Of a stretch of 64,000 bases of DNA, positions 36,257 to 54,673 are shown piece by piece. The notes beneath the pieces were generated by a model. The model did not search any database and was not told the DNA's origin. It saw only the letters and a list, made by a program, of their open reading frames with translations. The DNA is from Pelobacter propionicus DSM 2379 (GTDB taxonomy: Bacteria; Desulfobacterota; Desulfuromonadia; Geobacterales; Pseudopelobacteraceae): contig NC_008609.1 in the NCBI RefSeq assembly GCF_000015045.1, forward strand, positions 1,355,001 to 1,419,000, in the 5' to 3' direction. Every line of letters starts with the position of its first letter. Within the stretch, counting starts at the first letter, position 1. The position numbers and the translations under genes are program-made.

Positions 36257-37555
36257 ATGAAATCCGTCAAGACCATGCTCAAAGGGCTCACCCACGAGGA
36301 ACTCCGTGAATGGGCCGGCGACAGGATATTCGACCGCGGAAGAAATTACATCTCCCGTGTCTCGCAACTGTCGCGTACCGAGGATGGAACCTTGGCGGCC
36401 TGGGTCTCCGGTAGCGATGAATATGCCACCACGGTCAGGCGCGATGGCAGGGAGGATTTTGACTATGACTGTACCTGCCCCTATGATGACGGCCCCTGCA
36501 AGCACGCGGTTGCGGTGCTGCTGGCGGCTGCCGGGCAGTTGAATGGAGGGGGGGCGATCCCTCTCCTGGATCCCTGCGCTGACCTGGCGCTGGAGATGTT
36601 CGGTGATCCTGAAGATGATGAGGAGTGGGCGGATGCTGAAGAGCCGGATGTGGAGTCATCCTCCCCGGAAGAGGCCAAAGGTCGTTTGCCCAGGATCGAA
36701 TCGATTCTGGCGGAGAAAAGCCGGGAAGAACTCGTGTCGCTGCTGGCTGGGCTTGCCTCCGATTTTCCGGATGTAGCCCGCCGGATCAACGAGACGGCGC
36801 AGCTTGAGACTGGACAGGTGGGAAAAATCGTCTGTGCCTTGAAAAAGGAGATCCGTTCGCTGACAGCGGAGGATGTCTGGTACAACCCCTGGAAGAGCGA
36901 GGGAAACCTGCCGGACTATTCCCATGTGGAGCAGCAGTTGCGTGCGCTATCGGACAGGGGGCACGCCGATGCTGTTCTGGAGCTGGGGGAGGAGTTGTGG
37001 CAGCGGGGCAACAAACAGGTCGAGTGCTCCCACGACGAGGGGGATACCGCCATGAAGATCGCCGCCTGCCTGGAGATCGTGCTGAGGGCGCTGCCTTCCA
37101 GCTCAATGCCCCGCGTGGAGCAGGTGCAGTGGCTGGTGGATCACGAACTTGATGATGAATACGCTCTGCTGGCCGGGATAGATAAACTCCTCAATGGCCC
37201 GCTCTACGGGGAAACGGAGTGGTCTAAGCTTGCCGAGACGCTTGAAGTGCGCCTGGAAAACAGGGAACTGCCAAAATCGGGGAGTTTTTCAGAAACCTAT
37301 CGCCGCGAGCGGGTCATGCGGTGGCTCTGCCACGCCTATCGGCGAAGCGGGCGGCAGAAAAAGGTCCTCCCGCTCCTGGAACGGGAAGCTGACCGTTGCC
37401 GGAGTTACGAGACACTGGTGAATGCCCTGCTGGAGGCGGGGGAGCCCGACCGGGCGCGTCAGTGGTGCATTCGGGGATTCGACAGAACGATAAAGGATGC
37501 ACCCGGAATAGCCAGTGCCCTGCAAAAGCGTTTACGGCAACTGGCCGAGGAGTGA
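36257..37555 (+). pseudogene. SWIM zinc-finger protein, N-terminal part (split by transposon)
   Basis: The first 432 codons of a larger protein. The SWIM motif CxCx(n)CxH is visible as CTCPYDDGPCKH near residue 75, followed by an acidic linker and a helical repeat region. The stop TGA at 37553 is the first three bases of the transposon, not native. The rest of the gene resumes at 43295; joining across one copy of the GGAG target duplication restores the frame (RQLAEE|EGKLDLAAAY). The intact protein would be about 645 aa. SWIM proteins often accompany SF2 helicases, and this one follows the primase-helicase gene by 55 bases. A truncated product could still be made. Confidence 0.85.
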
Positions 37556-37697
37556 GAGTAAACACGATAATCGAGGGAGGTTCAGACTTGCTAATTGAGG
37601 GATCATTGCAGGCCCTGACCTGACGATCATGGATGCTGGATGGGCGGCGGTTGAGCCCTGCATAACAGTAGGTTCATCCGCCGCCCCCAGGTTTTTC

Positions 37698-37946
37698 CTA
37701 CCTCAGTTGCCGCATGAGCTCCCTTGCCTTCTTCCGGCTGTAACCGATGTCCTCCCTCGATACGTCATACAGATAGACCGGATAGTTAAACCCTGTCTTG
37801 ATGAGCAGTCCTCCGTTCCAGTCAGTGATCATGGTGATGCTTCTAATATTCCGACGGTAGCGGAACCATGTCGTATTTTCCTCCGTGATCTCCACATCGA
37901 GCGTTTCCAGCCGTCTTTTCTGGGGGTTATACACAGTGCATTCCAT
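37698..37946 (-). CDS. 82-aa protein at the transposon end, copy 1
   Basis: Begins MECTVYNPQKRRLETLDVEI and has a Trp/Tyr-rich middle (TTWFRYRRNIRSITMITDW) and a basic tail (SRKKARELMRQLR). The start is the ATG at 37946, 6 bases after GGGAGG; an in-frame GTG directly on the ribosome site is unlikely. It is identical to the copy at 52907 and lies inside the transposon, downstream of the ATPase. No family recognised. It could be a cargo gene or a fourth transposition or regulatory factor. Confidence 0.7.
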   Translation of the reverse strand: MECTVYNPQKRRLETLDVEITEENTTWFRYRRNIRSITMITDWNGGLLIKTGFNYPVYLYDVSREDIGYSRKKARELMRQLR

Positions 37947-38129
37947 ATCCACCTCCCGGGCTATTTCAGGAACGGCGCGGCTGACGCACGGGAGGAGTGA
38001 ATAGGTCGAAGTAGAGGGGTTCGTCGATGCGCGGTGTCAATGGTAGTGCAATAATGTCCCAAAAGCGGTAACGAAAAGTGTACCGCCCTGGAAGCCGTGG
38101 TATCCCTTCTGGAGAAAGGAGGGGTGCCC

Positions 38130-40153
<2,024 letters not shown>

Positions 40154-40983
40154 GGAACTTCTCTAACCAGCAGGGTGGTACACTTTTCAATTCCCGAAAC
40201 TGGTACACTTTTGCGTCCCCATTGACACGCGGGAGGTTGCGCTCGGCGGCGGCGGTGAGCAGTTCCGCCGCCATGTGTGTGAGCACCCGCAGGTTTCCGT
40301 GTGCATGGGTTGCCAGGGTTTGGATCAGCTCCGGTGCGATCAACTGGGGCGCCCCGGCTTTCTGCAGGACGTAGTCCAGGTAGGAAGCCAGCTCCTGCGG
40401 GGTGAGCGCGGAGAGTTCCAGGCGGGCGCGGATGCGACTGCCCAAGGGTAGGAGTTCCGGGGTGCGGAAGCGCTGGGGGAGCCGGGCGTCGCCGCACAGC
40501 ACGGTGAAGAGCAGGCTCTGGGAGTCGAAGCTCGCGCTTTGCAGGAGCCTCAGTTCGGTCAGGCACTCGGAGCTGACCTCCTGAGCCTCATCGACCAGGA
40601 GCAGCGGGCGCAAGAGAGTCGCTGCACAGTGTGCGCGCCAGCGCTCACGCAGCGCCTTGAATCCGCCATACCGGTTGGCGGGATTGAGCTGAACGCCGAA
40701 TAGCTCTCCAAGCTCGCGATAGAAATCGGCGACCTTGCTTTGGGGGCGCTCCATCACCCCCACTACGATGTCGGGCAGTTGTCCCAGGCGGGCGCCAAGC
40801 CACTGCAGGGTCTTCGATTTGCCGTAGCCCGGCTCACCGGTGATCAGGGAGAACCCGCCCTGGGAGACCAGGGACTCCAGGCGCCGGGCAAAGAGTTCGG
40901 CGCCCGGCAGCGGCCAGAGCGCCTCCACGGGAAGCGCCGGCACGAACGGGTTGTACTTGAGCCCGTAGAGGGCCAGGAGAGTC

Positions 40984-42438
40984 TTATCGTTCATCGGGAC
41001 CCTCCTTCACGGCAAGATAGGCCGGTGGAAGCCCGGTGGCGGCGTAATCCGCCAGCCACTTGCGAAGCAGTGCGGGCATCTCCTCGGGTGAGGCGTTCGC
41101 CTGGGCCGACTGCGCCGCAACCGGTTCCAGAGTGCGGCGCTGACCGGAGGCGTTTTTCTCCTTGTCCTGGGGGAGCAGCCGGGCCAAGGGATTGCAGCTG
41201 TCGGGATCCACTAGAACCATCCGGCTTACGTCCCAACCGGCATGGCGTAACGTCAGGCGGGGGAGATGCCTGAACCGCGACGGGACCTCGAAGCGCACCC
41301 CCTCGACCGTCACGGTTGCATCGCTTTTGCGCTGGGTGCGCGTAACCTGGCGGGTGAAGGCGAGATTCAAGGAGTCCATGTCGGGAGCCGAGCGGGAGAC
41401 CTCCGGTCCGGCGAGCAGGCGCTCGATCGGAGCGCAGCCGATCTCGCTGTGGGTACGGCGGTGATAGTCCTGTTCGACCCACGCCTGGGTGGTGCGGTTG
41501 AGGAACTCCAGCCGCAAGGGGCTCACCCCGCGCAAAAGCTCCATGAGACGTCCCTCAAGCTGCGCCCAGAACACCTCCTGTTTCCCGTTCATATAGGGCG
41601 AGTAAGGAAGGGTTGTGTCGTGGCTCACCCCGAGTCGGGCCAGCCCCTCCCGGGTTTCCTCCGCCAGCATCGCGCTTCCATTATCGGTCATCAGAGCCCT
41701 GGGAAGCCCACGTTTCAGCATCGCCTGCGTGAGAGCATGCGCGAGGTTCTGGGCGCTTTCCGCCAGATACCACTGCAGATGGCAGCAGAGCCTGCTCCGG
41801 TCGTCCAGAACCGCGCACACCAGGGGCGTCTGCCAGCCCCCCTCCTCGTCCAGCACCTTGAGGCTTCCCTGGTGGAAGTCGAGGTGCCACAGGGCGTGCA
41901 CGTGGCTCGCCTCATAGCCGCGAATCTCACGGCTTTCGCGGCGCCGGACGGCGCGGCGTTGTCCTTCGGTCGGGTTCGCGGGCTCGCGCCTTTTCTGCCA
42001 CCCCTTCTCCCGCATTCGGCGAAGCACGCTCTGGTAGCTCGGCAAGGCTCCCATCTGGGGCTTTTGGGCCACTTCGGCGGCGAGGTTGTCGTAGTGCAGT
42101 TGCACCGTCCAGCGAGGATACCTGGCATACTGCACTTCCAGGGCGCTCAAGAGCGCCTCGGACAGCGCAATCTGACACCCGGCGTCCGAACGCGCCTTGC
42201 GACTCAGCGCAGCGATCGGGTCCGCGGCGTCCTTCGCCTGGTAGTACCAGCGTTCGAGCGTGGAAAAACCAAGTCGTATAGACTTCTCCGGGAGCAGGGG
42301 ATGCCGGTACACCCTCTCGCTCAATTCCCGGATCTTTCCCTGCAACTCCCCGCTCGCGGCAGGGCTCGCCAATAGCGGTCCGATCACCTGCAGCCGAAAC
42401 CTGGCCCAGCGCTGCTTCGGGACTACATTCTTCTTCAT
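40984..42438 (-). CDS. DDE transposase of the 3.5-kb transposon, copy 1
   Basis: 484 aa, identical in sequence to the copy at 50613. The rve-type catalytic core shows the three acidic residues in HALWHLDFHQGS, RALMTDNGSAML and YSPYMNGKQEVFWAQLE. An N-terminal helical DNA-binding region precedes it, and a beta-barrel plus charged tail follow, as in TniA/TnsB/MuA. The stop overlaps the ATPase start by 11 bases. This copy's ATPase partner is broken, so it would depend on copy 2 for that function. Confidence 0.93.
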   Translation of the reverse strand: MKKNVVPKQRWARFRLQVIGPLLASPAASGELQGKIRELSERVYRHPLLPEKSIRLGFSTLERWYYQAKDAADPIAALSRKARSDAGCQIALSEALLSALEVQYARYPRWTVQLHYDNLAAEVAQKPQMGALPSYQSVLRRMREKGWQKRREPANPTEGQRRAVRRRESREIRGYEASHVHALWHLDFHQGSLKVLDEEGGWQTPLVCAVLDDRSRLCCHLQWYLAESAQNLAHALTQAMLKRGLPRALMTDNGSAMLAEETREGLARLGVSHDTTLPYSPYMNGKQEVFWAQLEGRLMELLRGVSPLRLEFLNRTTQAWVEQDYHRRTHSEIGCAPIERLLAGPEVSRSAPDMDSLNLAFTRQVTRTQRKSDATVTVEGVRFEVPSRFRHLPRLTLRHAGWDVSRMVLVDPDSCNPLARLLPQDKEKNASGQRRTLEPVAAQSAQANASPEEMPALLRKWLADYAATGLPPAYLAVKEGPDER

Positions 42439-42592
42439 TTAAGGCTCCTTTCCGGCCGCCATCCAGGCGTCTCCACTGTGGAGCACCTTCGGGTCAGCCA
42501 AGAGCCGCCTTATAAACCATTCCGAGCCCGATGCGAATCCGCCATCTTTTGCGCGGACCCTTACGACAGTCCAGCTCCCTCGCCGATCCTGT

Positions 42593-43155
42593 TCAAAAGC
42601 CGCATCCCGCAAGCAGTCGCAGACAGCGCACCAACGCCGTTTCCGGGCCGTCGCGGCCAAGCCCCAGGCGCTCCAGCACCCCCAACGGAATCGCTTCCGC
42701 CGCCACTGGAGGGATCAGGAGACCGCGCAATCTTTGCCAGGTTGAGGTATGCGGGAAGGTCGAGCGAAAAAACGCCAGCCAGCGTCTGAAAGTCGAGAGG
42801 GTGACGCCGAAGAGGTCCATGATCTTGCGGGCGCTGTAACCCTTTTCCCGCTGTTGGCGAAGGGCTGTGGCGACAACGATCACCCCGCCCCAATAAACAC
42901 GCCGGCCCAGGAAGAGCACCGATGGCGGCAAGGTCCGTCGTCGGCAACCTTCACGACCGCAGCAAAGACTATGGCGTATGAAGAATGTTTCGAACAGGTT
43001 GGCGGGGCCGCCACGGGGTTTGCGCACATAGGCGCCTCGGTGCAGCGGTCCCGAACAGTAGGGCAACCAAGGGAGCGCACCCCCTCGGCAAGGTCGACGT
43101 CGATGTTATGAAGGAGGGAAAAAAGCTTCTGACGCTGAATAATTTCTGGTAGCAT
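42593..43155 (-). CDS. Zinc-binding/HTH protein of the 3.5-kb transposon, copy 1 (apparent -1 frameshift)
   Basis: Mirror of the gene at 49896-50458. The N-terminal part (MLPEIIQRQKLFSLLHNIDV) is in one frame and the main part (PYCSGPLHRGAYVRKPRGGP ... LRLLAGCGF) in the -1 frame. Joining them near 43063-43065 rebuilds a CPYC zinc knuckle. The second half has CCGREGCRRR and an HTH-like segment (GYSARKIMDLFGVTLSTFRRW). It resembles DUF6431-type proteins found beside rve transposases; that match is tentative. The same shift in both copies means it predates the duplication or is programmed. Confidence 0.65.
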
Positions 43156-43294
43156 GACTCCTGCCTGATTCCTGCTGGGCAAGGAGGAGCCCCCGTCGAT
43201 TCCGCCAAGAAAAGTGAGGGGGCTTCTCCATCTTTTCCTCACATTTCTCGTCTATTTCTCGCCTAATTTCCATCAATTTTTCTGATCAGCCTCA

Positions 43295-44080: not shown

Positions 44081-44088
44081 ATTTTTGC

Positions 44089-44164
44089 TGGAGCCGTTTG
44101 TCGGAATCGAACCGACGACCTCATCATTACGAGTGATGTGCTCTACCAACTGAGCTAAAACGGC
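44089..44164 (-). tRNA. tRNA-Thr(CGT), copy A
   Basis: 76 nt including encoded CCA. Acceptor GCCGTTT/AAACGGC, D-arm GCTCAGTTGGTAGAGC, anticodon loop CTCGTAA (CGT), T-arm GTCGGTTCGATTCCGAC. Identical to copy B. It retains the native terminator on its 3' side, but its upstream side is now island DNA, where I see no clear promoter, so it may be silent. Confidence 0.95.
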
Positions 44165-44246
44165 AATGAGGTCAATAGCTTGTGTTAGATGCTGAGAAAG
44201 GTGTCTGTCTGTTTTGTAGGCTGAGATTTGATTGATTCTAATAAAA

Positions 44247-49587: not shown

Positions 49588-49756
49588 TTACTCCGTTATC
49601 ACCCCATAGTCAACCTTCACGACCACCTCTAGCAGAACATCAGCCTTGTACCTCTTGCCGTACCTTCCCGTTGTAATGGATGCGTTAGCGTGCCCCATGA
49701 GTTCACCTATGAGACTCTCTTGTGCTCCCTGTTGCTTCAGGTTATCGGCAAAGGAG
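49588..49756 (-). pseudogene. Island integrase, C-terminal fragment
   Basis: Minus-strand reading gives SFADNLKQQGAQESLIGELM, HANASITTGRYGKRY, then DYGVITE and a stop at 49588. It contains the last catalytic block of a tyrosine recombinase (GHAN...TxxxY; the nucleophile Tyr is in TTGRYGKRY). It completes the gene whose N-terminal part ends at 53301: HSFRHS + FADNL rebuilds the HxFRHSFAD motif. The 3,544-bp transposon separates the two. Confidence 0.85.
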
Positions 49757-49895
49757 TGAGGCTGATCAGAAAAATTGATGGAAATTAGGCGAGAAATAGA
49801 CGAGAAATGTGAGGAAAAGATGGAGAAGCCCCCTCACTTTTCTTGGCGGAATCGACGGGGGCTCCTCCTTGCCCAGCAGGAATCAGGCAGGAGTC

Positions 49896-50458
49896 ATGCT
49901 ACCAGAAATTATTCAGCGTCAGAAGCTTTTTTCCCTCCTTCATAACATCGACGTCGACCTTGCCGAGGGGGTGCGCTCCCTTGGTTGCCCTACTGTTCGG
50001 GACCGCTGCACCGAGGCGCCTATGTGCGCAAACCCCGTGGCGGCCCCGCCAACCTGTTCGAAACATTCTTCATACGCCATAGTCTTTGCTGCGGTCGTGA
50101 AGGTTGCCGACGACGGACCTTGCCGCCATCGGTGCTCTTCCTGGGCCGGCGTGTTTATTGGGGCGGGGTGATCGTTGTCGCCACAGCCCTTCGCCAACAG
50201 CGGGAAAAGGGTTACAGCGCCCGCAAGATCATGGACCTCTTCGGCGTCACCCTCTCGACTTTCAGACGCTGGCTGGCGTTTTTTCGCTCGACCTTCCCGC
50301 ATACCTCAACCTGGCAAAGATTGCGCGGTCTCCTGATCCCTCCAGTGGCGGCGGAAGCGATTCCGTTGGGGGTGCTGGAGCGCCTGGGGCTTGGCCGCGA
50401 CGGCCCGGAAACGGCGTTGGTGCGCTGTCTGCGACTGCTTGCGGGATGCGGCTTTTGA
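49896..50458 (+). CDS. Zinc-binding/HTH protein of the transposon, copy 2 (apparent -1 frameshift)
   Basis: The ATG at 49896 opens MLPEIIQRQKLFSLLHNIDV...EGVRSLGC; the frame then has to move back one base at about 49986-49988 to continue PYCSGPLHRGAYVRKPRGGP, CCGREGCRRR and an HTH (GYSARKIMDLFGVTLSTFRRW) to the stop at 50458. The joined protein has CPYC plus CCxxxxC, a likely zinc site, and is about 187 aa. It may be a DUF6431-type protein. Alternatives: translation from a TTG at 49985, or a fixed frameshift mutation. The site is not a classic A-rich slippery heptamer. Confidence 0.65.
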
Positions 50459-50612
50459 ACAGGATCGGCGAGGGAGCTGGACTGTCGTAAGGGTCCGCGC
50501 AAAAGATGGCGGATTCGCATCGGGCTCGGAATGGTTTATAAGGCGGCTCTTGGCTGACCCGAAGGTGCTCCACAGTGGAGACGCCTGGATGGCGGCCGGA
50601 AAGGAGCCTTAA

Positions 50613-52067
50613 ATGAAGAAGAATGTAGTCCCGAAGCAGCGCTGGGCCAGGTTTCGGCTGCAGGTGATCGGACCGCTATTGGCGAGCCCTGCCGCGAGCG
50701 GGGAGTTGCAGGGAAAGATCCGGGAATTGAGCGAGAGGGTGTACCGGCATCCCCTGCTCCCGGAGAAGTCTATACGACTTGGTTTTTCCACGCTCGAACG
50801 CTGGTACTACCAGGCGAAGGACGCCGCGGACCCGATCGCTGCGCTGAGTCGCAAGGCGCGTTCGGACGCCGGGTGTCAGATTGCGCTGTCCGAGGCGCTC
50901 TTGAGCGCCCTGGAAGTGCAGTATGCCAGGTATCCTCGCTGGACGGTGCAACTGCACTACGACAACCTCGCCGCCGAAGTGGCCCAAAAGCCCCAGATGG
51001 GAGCCTTGCCGAGCTACCAGAGCGTGCTTCGCCGAATGCGGGAGAAGGGGTGGCAGAAAAGGCGCGAGCCCGCGAACCCGACCGAAGGACAACGCCGCGC
51101 CGTCCGGCGCCGCGAAAGCCGTGAGATTCGCGGCTATGAGGCGAGCCACGTGCACGCCCTGTGGCACCTCGACTTCCACCAGGGAAGCCTCAAGGTGCTG
51201 GACGAGGAGGGGGGCTGGCAGACGCCCCTGGTGTGCGCGGTTCTGGACGACCGGAGCAGGCTCTGCTGCCATCTGCAGTGGTATCTGGCGGAAAGCGCCC
51301 AGAACCTCGCGCATGCTCTCACGCAGGCGATGCTGAAACGTGGGCTTCCCAGGGCTCTGATGACCGATAATGGAAGCGCGATGCTGGCGGAGGAAACCCG
51401 GGAGGGGCTGGCCCGACTCGGGGTGAGCCACGACACAACCCTTCCTTACTCGCCCTATATGAACGGGAAACAGGAGGTGTTCTGGGCGCAGCTTGAGGGA
51501 CGTCTCATGGAGCTTTTGCGCGGGGTGAGCCCCTTGCGGCTGGAGTTCCTCAACCGCACCACCCAGGCGTGGGTCGAACAGGACTATCACCGCCGTACCC
51601 ACAGCGAGATCGGCTGCGCTCCGATCGAGCGCCTGCTCGCCGGACCGGAGGTCTCCCGCTCGGCTCCCGACATGGACTCCTTGAATCTCGCCTTCACCCG
51701 CCAGGTTACGCGCACCCAGCGCAAAAGCGATGCAACCGTGACGGTCGAGGGGGTGCGCTTCGAGGTCCCGTCGCGGTTCAGGCATCTCCCCCGCCTGACG
51801 TTACGCCATGCCGGTTGGGACGTAAGCCGGATGGTTCTAGTGGATCCCGACAGCTGCAATCCCTTGGCCCGGCTGCTCCCCCAGGACAAGGAGAAAAACG
51901 CCTCCGGTCAGCGCCGCACTCTGGAACCGGTTGCGGCGCAGTCGGCCCAGGCGAACGCCTCACCCGAGGAGATGCCCGCACTGCTTCGCAAGTGGCTGGC
52001 GGATTACGCCGCCACCGGGCTTCCACCGGCCTATCTTGCCGTGAAGGAGGGTCCCGATGAACGATAA
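50613..52067 (+). CDS. DDE transposase of the transposon, copy 2
   Basis: 484 aa; the start MKKNVVPKQRWARFRLQVIG follows AAAGGAGCC. Catalytic acidic residues lie in WHLDFHQGS (near residue 190), LMTDNGSAM (near 250) and NGKQEVFWAQ (near 290), the D,D-35-E pattern of rve transposases. The C-terminal third has a beta-barrel-like RFEVPSRFRHLPRLTLRHAG followed by a tail rich in Gln, Ala and Pro that could bind the ATPase. It is the TnsB/TniA-like component. Confidence 0.94.
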   Translation: MKKNVVPKQRWARFRLQVIGPLLASPAASGELQGKIRELSERVYRHPLLPEKSIRLGFSTLERWYYQAKDAADPIAALSRKARSDAGCQIALSEALLSALEVQYARYPRWTVQLHYDNLAAEVAQKPQMGALPSYQSVLRRMREKGWQKRREPANPTEGQRRAVRRRESREIRGYEASHVHALWHLDFHQGSLKVLDEEGGWQTPLVCAVLDDRSRLCCHLQWYLAESAQNLAHALTQAMLKRGLPRALMTDNGSAMLAEETREGLARLGVSHDTTLPYSPYMNGKQEVFWAQLEGRLMELLRGVSPLRLEFLNRTTQAWVEQDYHRRTHSEIGCAPIERLLAGPEVSRSAPDMDSLNLAFTRQVTRTQRKSDATVTVEGVRFEVPSRFRHLPRLTLRHAGWDVSRMVLVDPDSCNPLARLLPQDKEKNASGQRRTLEPVAAQSAQANASPEEMPALLRKWLADYAATGLPPAYLAVKEGPDER

Positions 52068-52887
52068 GACTCTCCTGGCCCTCTACGGGCTCAAGTACAA
52101 CCCGTTCGTGCCGGCGCTTCCCGTGGAGGCGCTCTGGCCGCTGCCGGGCGCCGAACTCTTTGCCCGGCGCCTGGAGTCCCTGGTCTCCCAGGGCGGGTTC
52201 TCCCTGATCACCGGTGAGCCGGGCTACGGCAAATCGAAGACCCTGCAGTGGCTTGGCGCCCGCCTGGGACAACTGCCCGACATCGTAGTGGGGGTGATGG
52301 AGCGCCCCCAAAGCAAGGTCGCCGATTTCTATCGCGAGCTTGGAGAGCTATTCGGCGTTCAGCTCAATCCCGCCAACCGGTATGGCGGATTCAAGGCGCT
52401 GCGTGAGCGCTGGCGCGCACACTGTGCAGCGACTCTCTTGCGCCCGCTGCTCCTGGTCGATGAGGCTCAGGAGGTCAGCTCCGAGTGCCTGACCGAACTG
52501 AGGCTCCTGCAAAGCGCGAGCTTCGACTCCCAGAGCCTGCTCTTCACCGTGCTGTGCGGCGACGCCCGGCTCCCCCAGCGCTTCCGCACCCCGGAACTCC
52601 TACCCTTGGGCAGTCGCATCCGCGCCCGCCTGGAACTCTCCGCGCTCACCCCGCAGGAGCTGGCTTCCTACCTGGACTACGTCCTGCAGAAAGCCGGGGC
52701 GCCCCAGTTGATCGCACCGGAGCTGATCCAAACCCTGGCAACCCATGCACACGGAAACCTGCGGGTGCTCACACACATGGCGGCGGAACTGCTCACCGCC
52801 GCCGCCGAGCGCAACCTCCCGCGCATCGACGAACCCCTCTACTTCGACCTATTCACTCCTCCCGTGCGTCAGCCGCGCCGTTCCTGA
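52057..52887 (+). CDS. ExeA/TniB-like transposition ATPase, intact copy
   Basis: 276-aa AAA+ protein starting MNDKTLLALYGLKYNPFVPA, the ExeA/TniB family opening. Walker A is GEPGYGKSKT near residue 58, Walker B LRPLLLVDEAQEVSSE near residue 130, and sensor 1 SLLFTVLCGDARLPQ. Like TnsC/TniB it would select target DNA and activate the transposase, with which it overlaps by 11 bases. The last 20 residues correspond to the fragment at 37966 that is cut off in copy 1. Confidence 0.92.
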   Translation: MNDKTLLALYGLKYNPFVPALPVEALWPLPGAELFARRLESLVSQGGFSLITGEPGYGKSKTLQWLGARLGQLPDIVVGVMERPQSKVADFYRELGELFGVQLNPANRYGGFKALRERWRAHCAATLLRPLLLVDEAQEVSSECLTELRLLQSASFDSQSLLFTVLCGDARLPQRFRTPELLPLGSRIRARLELSALTPQELASYLDYVLQKAGAPQLIAPELIQTLATHAHGNLRVLTHMAAELLTAAAERNLPRIDEPLYFDLFTPPVRQPRRS

Positions 52888-52906
52888 AATAGCCCGGGAG
52901 GTGGAT

Positions 52907-53155
52907 ATGGAATGCACTGTGTATAACCCCCAGAAAAGACGGCTGGAAACGCTCGATGTGGAGATCACGGAGGAAAATACGACATGGTTCCGCTACCGTC
53001 GGAATATTAGAAGCATCACCATGATCACTGACTGGAACGGAGGACTGCTCATCAAGACAGGGTTTAACTATCCGGTCTATCTGTATGACGTATCGAGGGA
53101 GGACATCGGTTACAGCCGGAAGAAGGCAAGGGAGCTCATGCGGCAACTGAGGTAG
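52907..53155 (+). CDS. 82-aa protein at the transposon end, copy 2
   Basis: Identical to the gene at 37698. It starts 19 bases after the ATPase stop with GGGAGG 6 bases upstream, so it is translationally linked to the transposition genes. Predicted small alpha/beta fold with many aromatic residues; no Cys pairs beyond one and no membrane segment. It lies about 145 bases from the transposon end. Function unknown: cargo, immunity or accessory transposition factor. Confidence 0.7.
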   Translation: MECTVYNPQKRRLETLDVEITEENTTWFRYRRNIRSITMITDWNGGLLIKTGFNYPVYLYDVSREDIGYSRKKARELMRQLR

Positions 53156-53300
53156 GAAAAACCTGGGGGCGGCGGATGAACCTACTGTTATGCAGGGCTC
53201 AACCGCCGCCCATCCAGCATCCATGATCGTCAGGTCAGGGCCTGCAATGATCCCTCAATTAGCAAGTCTGAACCTCCCTCGATTATCGTGTTTACTCTCA

Positions 53301-54443
53301 GGAGTGTCGGAAGGAGTGGAAGCACTTCAGCGGATCATCGGTGATGTACTGCCTGTTGAAGCTGTTACCGTACCAGTTGCCAACATTCTTCCCGTATCCC
53401 CATCTGCCCTTTGACAACCCCCACAGGTTACACCCAGCAGGAGATGCGCCTCTCTTCTGCTCCAGATACACCAGCAACCCCATGCTGATTAGGTCAGGAT
53501 GGACGGGAACAATCCTTTTTGACGACTTGGATTTCAGGCGTTTATCTCCTTGCGTGTTAACATCAAAGCAGACAATCCCATCTATGGTTCTTATGTCCTC
53601 TGTAGAGAGCTGGCAGATTTCTTCAAGTCTCATCCCTGAGTACATAGCGATAAGAGGCACCCATCGTCTATATGGCTTAACCTGAACTGAGCAATGATCC
53701 AGAACCTTCCGCAAGTCATCGTTGCTGTATGCCTTCCGTTCCTCGTCGGTGCGGGTATCTTTCCCAAGAGTCAAACCCTCAGCGGGATTACTATCAGTAT
53801 GACCATGTTTGGCTCCCCATTTGAGCAGCGAGGAAAGGAGGATCATATATTTGTTTACTGTAGCGAGGTGCATCCCTTCATTTCCTGTATTCACCTTAAG
53901 CAGTTCCGGTACAGTGAGGTTCTTGAACCTGTTGATTCTCATGAAACCAGGAGGAAGCCTTCGTAGTATATCCCGACAACTTACACAAGATGCCCTATCA
54001 ATGTCGCAGACAGGTTTGTTGTCAAGAACCATCATCAGAAGTTCTAGCTGTCTGTCAATTTCATGTTGGCTCTTGGGTGTCCAGTTCGGAGAGTGCTCTT
54101 TTGTGTACATATCAATGAGCTTAGAGAGCTTTACTGAAGCTCTTTGGGAAGTGGGGGATACAACGGGTGAGTGGGGGGGAGCTGGTTTGTGATGCTTGCA
54201 GGGTAGGGTGTATGCCATCAATCCATCAAGCATCTCAGGCGAGAGCAAGCCCGTGCGGATCAATGTGAAGGCAACGCTGAATTTCTGCTGAAGCCCACCA
54301 GCGAGGGCCAGAGCTTCCTTCTTGTTGGAGGTCTTGAGCGACTTGGCTATGTCGGTCTTATTGCCAAACAGGGGGCGGAGATCAAGGGGAAACCACTGAC
54401 GGAAGTAATACCTACCGTTACGAGTGAAGAGGTGCTTAGACAT
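53301..54443 (-). pseudogene. Island tyrosine integrase, N-terminal part (split by transposon)
   Basis: 381 codons from the ATG at 54443 (MSKHLFTRNGRYYFRQWFPL, a DUF6538-type start), through a SAM-like core-binding domain, to the catalytic YSGMRLEEICQLSTEDI (Arg) and CFHSFRHS, where the frame runs into the transposon and stops. The missing end, with the Tyr nucleophile, is at 49588-49756. Full length would be about 437 aa. It lies 88 bases from tRNA-Thr copy B, its inferred attachment site. Without the Tyr this fragment cannot recombine. Confidence 0.9.
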
Positions 54444-54482: not shown

Positions 54483-54530
54483 AACGGGTCTTTCTGTTCT
54501 AACAGTACTAAACTATTGGAATAATTAAAC

Positions 54531-54606
54531 TGGAGCCGTTTGTCGGAATCGAACCGACGACCTCATCATTACGAGTGATGTGCTCTACCAACTGAGCTAA
54601 AACGGC
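54531..54606 (-). tRNA. tRNA-Thr(CGT), copy B
   Basis: Identical to copy A over the full 76 nt, including CCA and anticodon loop CTCGTAA. This copy keeps the chromosomal upstream side with a consensus promoter at 54674, so it is the one most likely expressed; the island begins right after its 3' end. Confidence 0.95.
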
Positions 54607-54673
54607 ATTGATGTCACGAAGGCTTGCTTTTGTCGGTCTCTGGCCATAAAACCGGCTGGGAAACGGAAGACTA

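Follow-up and report, generated by a model that had tools for sequence, protein, structure and literature searches.

How does a transposon make a conserved protein whose gene is split between two reading frames? The question is raised by an element of Pelobacter propionicus DSM 2379, located in a 64,000-nucleotide stretch of contig NC_008609.1 (positions 1,355,001 to 1,419,000, forward strand) that we refer to as the window and whose internal coordinates are used throughout. The element, complete at 49757..53300 (+ strand; 3,544 bp), is present in seven copies in the genome and encodes a zinc/helix–turn–helix (HTH) protein, a DDE transposase, an AAA+ ATPase and a small open reading frame (ORF). 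An original prediction, made from the sequence alone, took it for a possibly undescribed transposon family with a zinc/HTH protein and did not mention the split. Sequence comparison places it instead, as a new member, in the little-studied Tn6049 family, which was first named in the metal-resistant soil bacterium Cupriavidus metallidurans. We consider it probable (roughly 0.8) that it is a self-sufficient Tn6049-family transposon and that, in the lineage to which it belongs, the whole zinc/HTH protein is made through a programmed −1 frameshift at a C_CCY site.

The N-terminal part of the zinc/HTH gene occupies 32 codons of frame 0 (49896..49991, + strand), from ATG 49896 to TGC CCT. Homology then resumes one base back, in the −1 frame (TAC TGT.., with TAC at 49991), where the remainder (49991..50458, + strand) encodes the second knuckle cysteine, further cysteines and the HTH. 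The split point is inside a CPxC zinc knuckle, the first and second cysteines of which are in different frames. When the two halves are joined, they show the same C-P-x-C knuckle and flanks as relatives that encode the protein in one frame.

The family was surveyed using one genome per species, and the best 80 of 100 relatives were used as loci. The zinc gene lies beside the transposase in 77 of these 80 loci, and in the three misses the transposase sits at a contig end; a conserved zinc protein next to the transposase was predicted correctly, but its gene is not one ORF. At the split site, 65 loci read through in one frame, nine show the same −1 shift and six are unjudgeable, being at contig ends. 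Further genome searches revealed the shift in L147 and in L143, L144 and L145, the last three having the transposases of L034, L037 and L039, respectively. The shifted set comprises 14 records with 11 distinct transposases, which form one clade with 100/100 support in a 73-row transposase tree (duplicates were removed and transposases shorter than 440 aa or containing stops omitted, L072 being kept). L160, found in another class of the phylum once the frameshift had already been proposed, has the same shift and site and contributes a twelfth distinct shifted transposase; L161–L163, from the search that gave L160, have the zinc gene in frame. The shifted records carry the labels Thermodesulfobacteriota, Myxococcota and Pseudomonadota and are mostly metagenome-assembled genomes, the named isolates being Desulfocicer vacuolatum and Desulfobacter vibrioformis.

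Selection and the stem-loop described below were analysed in ten representatives of the 14 shifted records, omitting the near-duplicates L034, L143, L144 and L145; one-frame controls were picked by hand, mostly from the nearest lineages (11 loci for stem pairing and 16 for synonymous shuffles). In the N-terminal part, the ratio of non-synonymous to synonymous polymorphism (pN/pS) is 0.46 in frame 0, compared with 0.99 and 1.41 in the other frames. In the remainder, it is 0.27 in the −1 frame, compared with 1.62 when frame 0 is continued. These values (0.46 and 0.27) indicate that both halves are maintained as protein, each in a different frame.

This pattern bears on the possibility that the split records an old inactivating deletion, in which case the zinc gene would be a pseudogene that this lineage can dispense with, conserved by coincidence. 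Both copies in the window are shifted and the other genome copies are near-identical, so that the element has spread with the shift; moreover, the one-frame relatives L062 and L103 have zinc genes broken at other places. However, purifying selection acts in two frames across lineages whose transposases are 57–70% identical to that of the window, all members share the identical site, and nine of the ten representatives have a remainder that stays open for 150–155 codons, the tenth (L040) being without the C-terminal half. We regard a pseudogene as very improbable and retain the frameshift reading.

Two side observations concern the integrity of this gene. L062 and L103 read through the shift site, and their zinc genes are split at other places that differ between them. 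This is what ordinary decay would produce, and it contrasts with the frameshift clade, where the site is fixed. In L040 (4746-6413) of Desulfocicer vacuolatum, the C-terminal half of the zinc protein is missing and the zinc part continues in frame into the transposase; this is either a natural zinc–transposase fusion or a decaying copy.

The proposed slippery site, C_CCT, spans the CPxC codons (49988..49991, + strand; in copy 1 of the element, 43060..43063, − strand, positioned via the 100% identical arm). TGC is followed by CCY in all ten representatives (CCT in nine and CCC in one), and L160 has TGC CCT. This sequence allows the proline tRNA to move back by one base and pair again, on CCC. 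According to passages of a review (PMC5009743), Z_ZZN is the least that nearly all −1 frameshifting requires in sequence, a form that C_CCY fits. Inspection by eye of the sequence upstream of the site showed no conserved Shine–Dalgarno sequence. Transcriptional slippage was rejected as a candidate, as the run of C residues is just three or four.

A stem of about 11 pairs, starting about 5–6 nucleotides downstream of the slip site, forms the proposed stimulatory stem-loop (49998..50048, + strand). Across the ten representatives, 91.3% of cells are paired, with 12 double-change cells, and pairing falls to 44–61% when the stem partner is slid by 1–3 columns. Covariation is 0.287 compared with 0.145 after shuffling, and none of 500 shuffles is as high. 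In the same columns, the 11 one-frame relatives are 61.9% paired compared with 59.1% when shuffled (47 of 500 as high). In shuffles of synonymous codons, eight of the ten representatives have a fold more stable than the mean of their shuffles, the exceptions being the window and L147; the mean z is −1.41 in the ten compared with +0.32 in the 16 one-frame relatives (p 0.0007). L160 retains 10 of the 11 stem pairs, with A-U where others have G-C, U-A or G-U.

Several observations weigh against a programmed frameshift assisted by this stem. The slip site is a tetramer, and there is no classical X_XXY_YYZ heptamer. Five stem pairs are changed on both sides, a count equalled in 56 of 500 shuffles, and the one-frame relatives pair above their own slid versions (61.9% compared with 38–49%). 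Constraints shared at the protein level (GGP..GGP) favour pairing. In three of the 11 sequences analysed, the window (z +0.37), L147 (+0.35) and L160 (−0.02), the fold is no stronger than that of synonymous shuffles; a stimulatory structure is supported for the clade but not for these three individually. Because the clade has a single origin and its members are not independent trials, the shuffle counts overstate the support. In addition, no structural match backs the role of the zinc protein: a fold search with the L042 model returned none at E ≤ 0.001 (best Z 2.6). Of five zinc-protein models, the best alone was confident (86.6; others 69.6–72.5).

A further point of this kind is that, in 14 of 14 records, the −1 frame has an NTG codon precisely at the shift (CTG, except for TTG in the L033 group and the window). 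The remainder could then initiate separately, if weakly, at this codon and the frame-0 part be a separate short protein, with no frameshifting at all. Against this, in all 14 records the −1 frame is free of ATG and GTG from the last stop before the knuckle up to the knuckle itself. Frame 0 extends 29–62 codons beyond the site in the ten representatives, which leaves no termination–reinitiation coupling there. The split lies inside the CPxC, the joined halves match the one-frame relatives throughout the knuckle, and the covarying stem comes after the site. Separate initiation thus appears unlikely, and we proceed with a programmed −1 frameshift as the preferred reading.

We propose the following mechanism. 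The transposase would bind repeated GATGG-containing end motifs and join the 3′ ends to a DNA target marked by the ATPase. The latter would also recruit the transposase, perhaps via its conserved C-terminal tail, and the zinc/HTH protein would act as a third assembly or target factor. In the frameshift clade, the whole zinc/HTH protein would be made only by ribosomes that slip one base back at C_CCY, the proline tRNA moving from CCT or CCC to pair with CCC, with the assistance of the stem-loop 5–6 nucleotides downstream. The slip would unite the two cysteines of the CPxC, one from each frame. Ribosomes that do not slip would yield the N-terminal fragment followed by a nonsense tail, which in L160 runs for 142 codons past the site. 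The rate of slippage would set the dose of intact zinc factor and thereby keep transposition low.

That the zinc gene is present throughout the family suggests that its protein is needed for transposition, and we infer that it is a transposition factor. Against Pfam, the zinc protein gave only weak HTH matches and one stray, and no TnsD/TniQ match; TniQ was likewise absent among 49 zinc-protein rows. It could be a dedicated target selector in a role of the TnsD/TniQ type. On balance, we favour the view that the rate of transposition is controlled at this third factor, and not at the transposase, by a −1 shift in the zinc knuckle that was fixed once and has been kept by selection in several bacterial groups. 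Because one clade appears to control the dose of the zinc factor translationally and the rest of the family does not, the frameshift offers a direct handle on the role of this factor. It also provides a candidate −1 cassette, made up of C_CCY and a stem-loop, in a gene other than that of the transposase, where such control is usually described. Searches of the open-licence PubMed Central literature gave no account of a frameshift in the Tn6049 family.

The other conserved components are the transposase (484 aa; 50613..52067, + strand) and the ATPase (276 aa; 52057..52887, + strand). The catalytic residues D187, D252 and E288 are invariant in 43 aligned members, with D,D(35)E spacing. All 43 transposases match the NCBIfam IS481 model; for that of the window, the best match is IS481 model NF033577, at 101.7 bits against a cut-off of 224 bits and hence below it. 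In the predicted structure (predicted local distance difference test score 81, predicted template modelling score 0.69), the best fold match is TnsB of a type V-K CRISPR-associated transposon (CAST; Z 22.5, root-mean-square deviation (r.m.s.d.) 11.4, 323 aligned, residues 7 to 480). V-K TnsB chains score Z 20.6–22.5, IstA Z 20.5–20.6 (top match r.m.s.d. 5.7, 233 aligned) and a chain of the Tn7 TnsABCD transpososome Z 20.2 (r.m.s.d. 5.7, 253 aligned). Retroviral integrases score Z 17–20 over about 145–167 residues, so that resemblance in the catalytic core is not by itself diagnostic. The transposase is thus predicted to fold like TnsB and IstA, a likeness of fold only.

The ATPase belongs to AAA_22 and, by profile comparison, is closest to MuB (E 7e-7); it also matches a phage ‘DNA transposition protein’ family (3e-20). 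It has no match to IstB_IS21 at E ≤ 0.1, a model that the ATPase of an IS21 element nested in copy 1 matches at 2e-82, and none to TniB. No family match to the TnsA endonuclease was found among the element proteins scanned. The DDE transposase plus AAA+ ATPase logic that had been proposed for the element was correct. The ATPase is present in 78 of the 80 loci; L083 is at a contig end, and L072 has a truncated transposase.

To which family does the element belong? In the plasmid collection, 252 records match its transposase, 24 of them over at least 80% of its length, and the best 20 matches are to Cupriavidus, Paraburkholderia and one Pseudomonas plasmid, pHS87a (97–98% coverage, 47–52% identity). 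The copies on pMOL30 and pHS87a encode a 181-aa zinc/HTH protein (annotated ‘transposase’), an ‘IS481 family transposase’, an AAA ATPase and a small ORF, and the gene order is that of the window in the three plasmid elements opened. These elements are Tn6049, described in passages of PMC2864759 as 3.5 kb in size, with 12 copies in CH34, one of which is on pMOL30, and an ATPase gene named gspA. For Tn6049 on pHS87a, passages of PMC4739549 give 12-bp imperfect repeats and 4-bp GCAG repeats, and these published ends agree with those found here. A related transposon is mentioned from Acidithiobacillus (PMC3414803), and PMC13192273 and PMC3384475 name Tn6049 in passages that carry no detail of mechanism. 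The transposase is 48.5% identical to that of Tn6049 and the zinc remainder 40%; the ATPase is 51% identical to that of the Tn6049-type locus L092. No relative of the element was found in viral contigs, phage records gave a single partial match only, and further genome searches at E ≤ 1e-100 gave no match in two classes (5 and 26 genomes).

The low transposase identity and a fourth gene unlike that of Tn6049 are what speak for a separate, previously undescribed family. Yet Tn6049 has the same gene order, the same end motif and the same range of duplications, and graded intermediates link the element to it on one tree. A separate family is therefore scarcely credible, and we consider it already refuted by the comparison with Tn6049, unless a much stricter definition of a family is adopted. 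The element shares with Tn6049 the order zinc/HTH, IS481-like transposase, AAA ATPase and small ORF, a length of about 3.5 kb, TG..CA ends with GATGG at right-end position 21, and short target duplications (4 or 6 bp in Tn6049); it differs in that the zinc gene of Tn6049 is in one frame and the fourth genes are unrelated. Tn6049 was described in the literature no later than 2010 (PMC2864759), and its transposition module ‘could not be categorized’ according to a passage of a 2018 paper (PMC6210171). The family is now placed by a transposase of predicted TnsB/IstA fold, a MuB-like ATPase, a zinc/HTH gene, defined ends and duplications of 4–7 bp.

The ends bear on the same question. The left terminal motif, TGAG..CA..GATGG with GATGG at position 21 (49757..49781, + strand), is common to other family members; the right motif, TGAG..CA..GAGGG (53276..53300, − strand), has GAGGG at position 21 and again at 45. 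A target duplication, GGAG, flanks the element (49753..49756 and 53301..53304). The TGAG ends and GGAG duplications reported for both window copies are present, as are the predicted sizes of the transposase, the ATPase and an 82-aa ORF. We compared the ends of 17 elements, the window included; an automatic end search returned many spurious pairs, of which only those bearing the family end motif were retained. The family ends are TGTG/TGAG..CA..GATGG, with the consensus TGAGcatGatCA on the left and TGAG.GTGa.CAC on the right. Of the 17 left ends, 12 have GATGG or GAGGG at position 21, as do 16 of the 17 right ends, 11 of which repeat it at 45. Fourteen of the 17 elements are flanked by duplications of 4–7 bp, a count biased by the choice of most of them through a search that required a duplication; none was found in L037, L039 and L147. 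A conserved end motif, TG(A/T)G plus a shared inner motif, is thus seen in other copies, but a fixed 4-bp duplication is not. Two arguments of the original prediction for a separate family, that its ends are unlike those of TG..CA elements and that it makes 4-bp duplications, fail because the termini (TGAG..CTCA) start with TG and finish with CA and the duplication length varies over the family.

The host genome (4.24 Mb, 3 contigs) contains seven left ends and as many transposase copies, all at 100% identity. Two of the element copies, copy 1 of the window and L026, are interrupted by IS21; of the full ones, four are identical and the fifth carries three differences. Flanks inspected by eye show 4-bp duplications at six of the seven (GGAG, GGAG, CCAA, ATGG, ATGC and GAAA) and a 7-bp duplication, TCAACGC, at the seventh (L029). 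Copy 1 (37553..43294, − strand) carries a nested IS21-family element encoding IstA and IstB (38035..40227, + strand; 2,193 bp) with 5-bp CGCGG repeats at both borders. Its arms are 100% identical to copy 2, the complete element, along 3,067 and 482 bp; coordinates and arms agree with the claim of two copies in opposite orientation, each 3,544 bp once the nested insertion sequence (IS) is removed. Host genes rejoin in frame, as had also been noted: scripted excision of copy 2 with one GGAG restores a 435-aa tyrosine-recombinase frame, and that of copy 1 with one GGAG a 642-aa SWIM-domain frame. The IS21 element is the identical 2,193-bp sequence in both interrupted copies, but its insertion site differs between them, as do the 5-bp repeats (CGCGG and TTCAT). 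Near-identical 87-bp repeats, tRNA-Thr-like by eye, lie 10.4 kb apart (44088-44174 and 54530-54616) and bracket the region whose tyrosine recombinase is broken by copy 2, which is perhaps a genomic island with a broken integrase.

The fourth gene of the element, the 82-aa ORF (52907..53155, + strand), is lineage specific, and no family was found for it. Among the 80 loci it is present only in L033 and L034, and elsewhere in L143 and the sister element L118; the small ORF of Cupriavidus is confined to Cupriavidus-type loci among the same 80. We treat the fourth gene as a variable passenger and not as family-defining. In L118 (229-459), whose transposase is just 28% identical, there is a 53%-identical copy of the 82-aa gene, and this small gene seems to move between element families. 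In L117–L119, the distant transposase is likewise paired with an ATPase. Another sister family, represented by L010, has a Mu-C-type transposase, an AAA_22 ATPase and a zinc protein matching DUF6431 below cut-off; a link from the Tn6049 zinc protein to DUF6431 through this family was set aside, as the profile comparison was unconvincing (probability 5.7, E 0.0067).

Comparison with known transposons places the element beside several systems. With Tn7-like elements and type V-K CASTs it shares a predicted TnsB fold and the pairing of a DDE transposase with an AAA+ ATPase, but its zinc protein has no TnsD/TniQ match and its transposase sequence is nearest the IS481 model. With IS21 it shares the IstA fold, TG..CA ends and variable duplications, those of IS21 being of variable length in a range that accommodates 4–7 bp; it differs in having an AAA_22 ATPase, not IstB, and an additional zinc/HTH gene. 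Unlike Tn402/Tn5053, it has no TniB or TniQ match, and its family makes duplications of 4–7 bp, not 5 bp. It is set apart from the IS481 family by a transposase below the NF033577 cut-off. TnRErm46 of R. equi, which is driven by an IS481 transposase, was set aside since the ends and genes given in the published passages differ. With regard to control, passages of the review cited above (PMC5009743) describe frameshifting for the transposases of bacterial insertion sequences and, in the case of the excision activator FseA, a +1 shift. As in −1 frameshifting of the IS1/IS3 type, the proposed shift would gate a transposition protein; there, however, the shift yields the transposase, whereas here it would yield an accessory zinc/HTH factor, from a C_CCY site in the zinc knuckle. 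FseA of the symbiosis island ICEMlSym provides the precedent for frameshift gating of an accessory protein of a mobile element, although that shift is +1, its product is a transcriptional activator and the element is an integrative conjugative one; the likeness is one of regulation.

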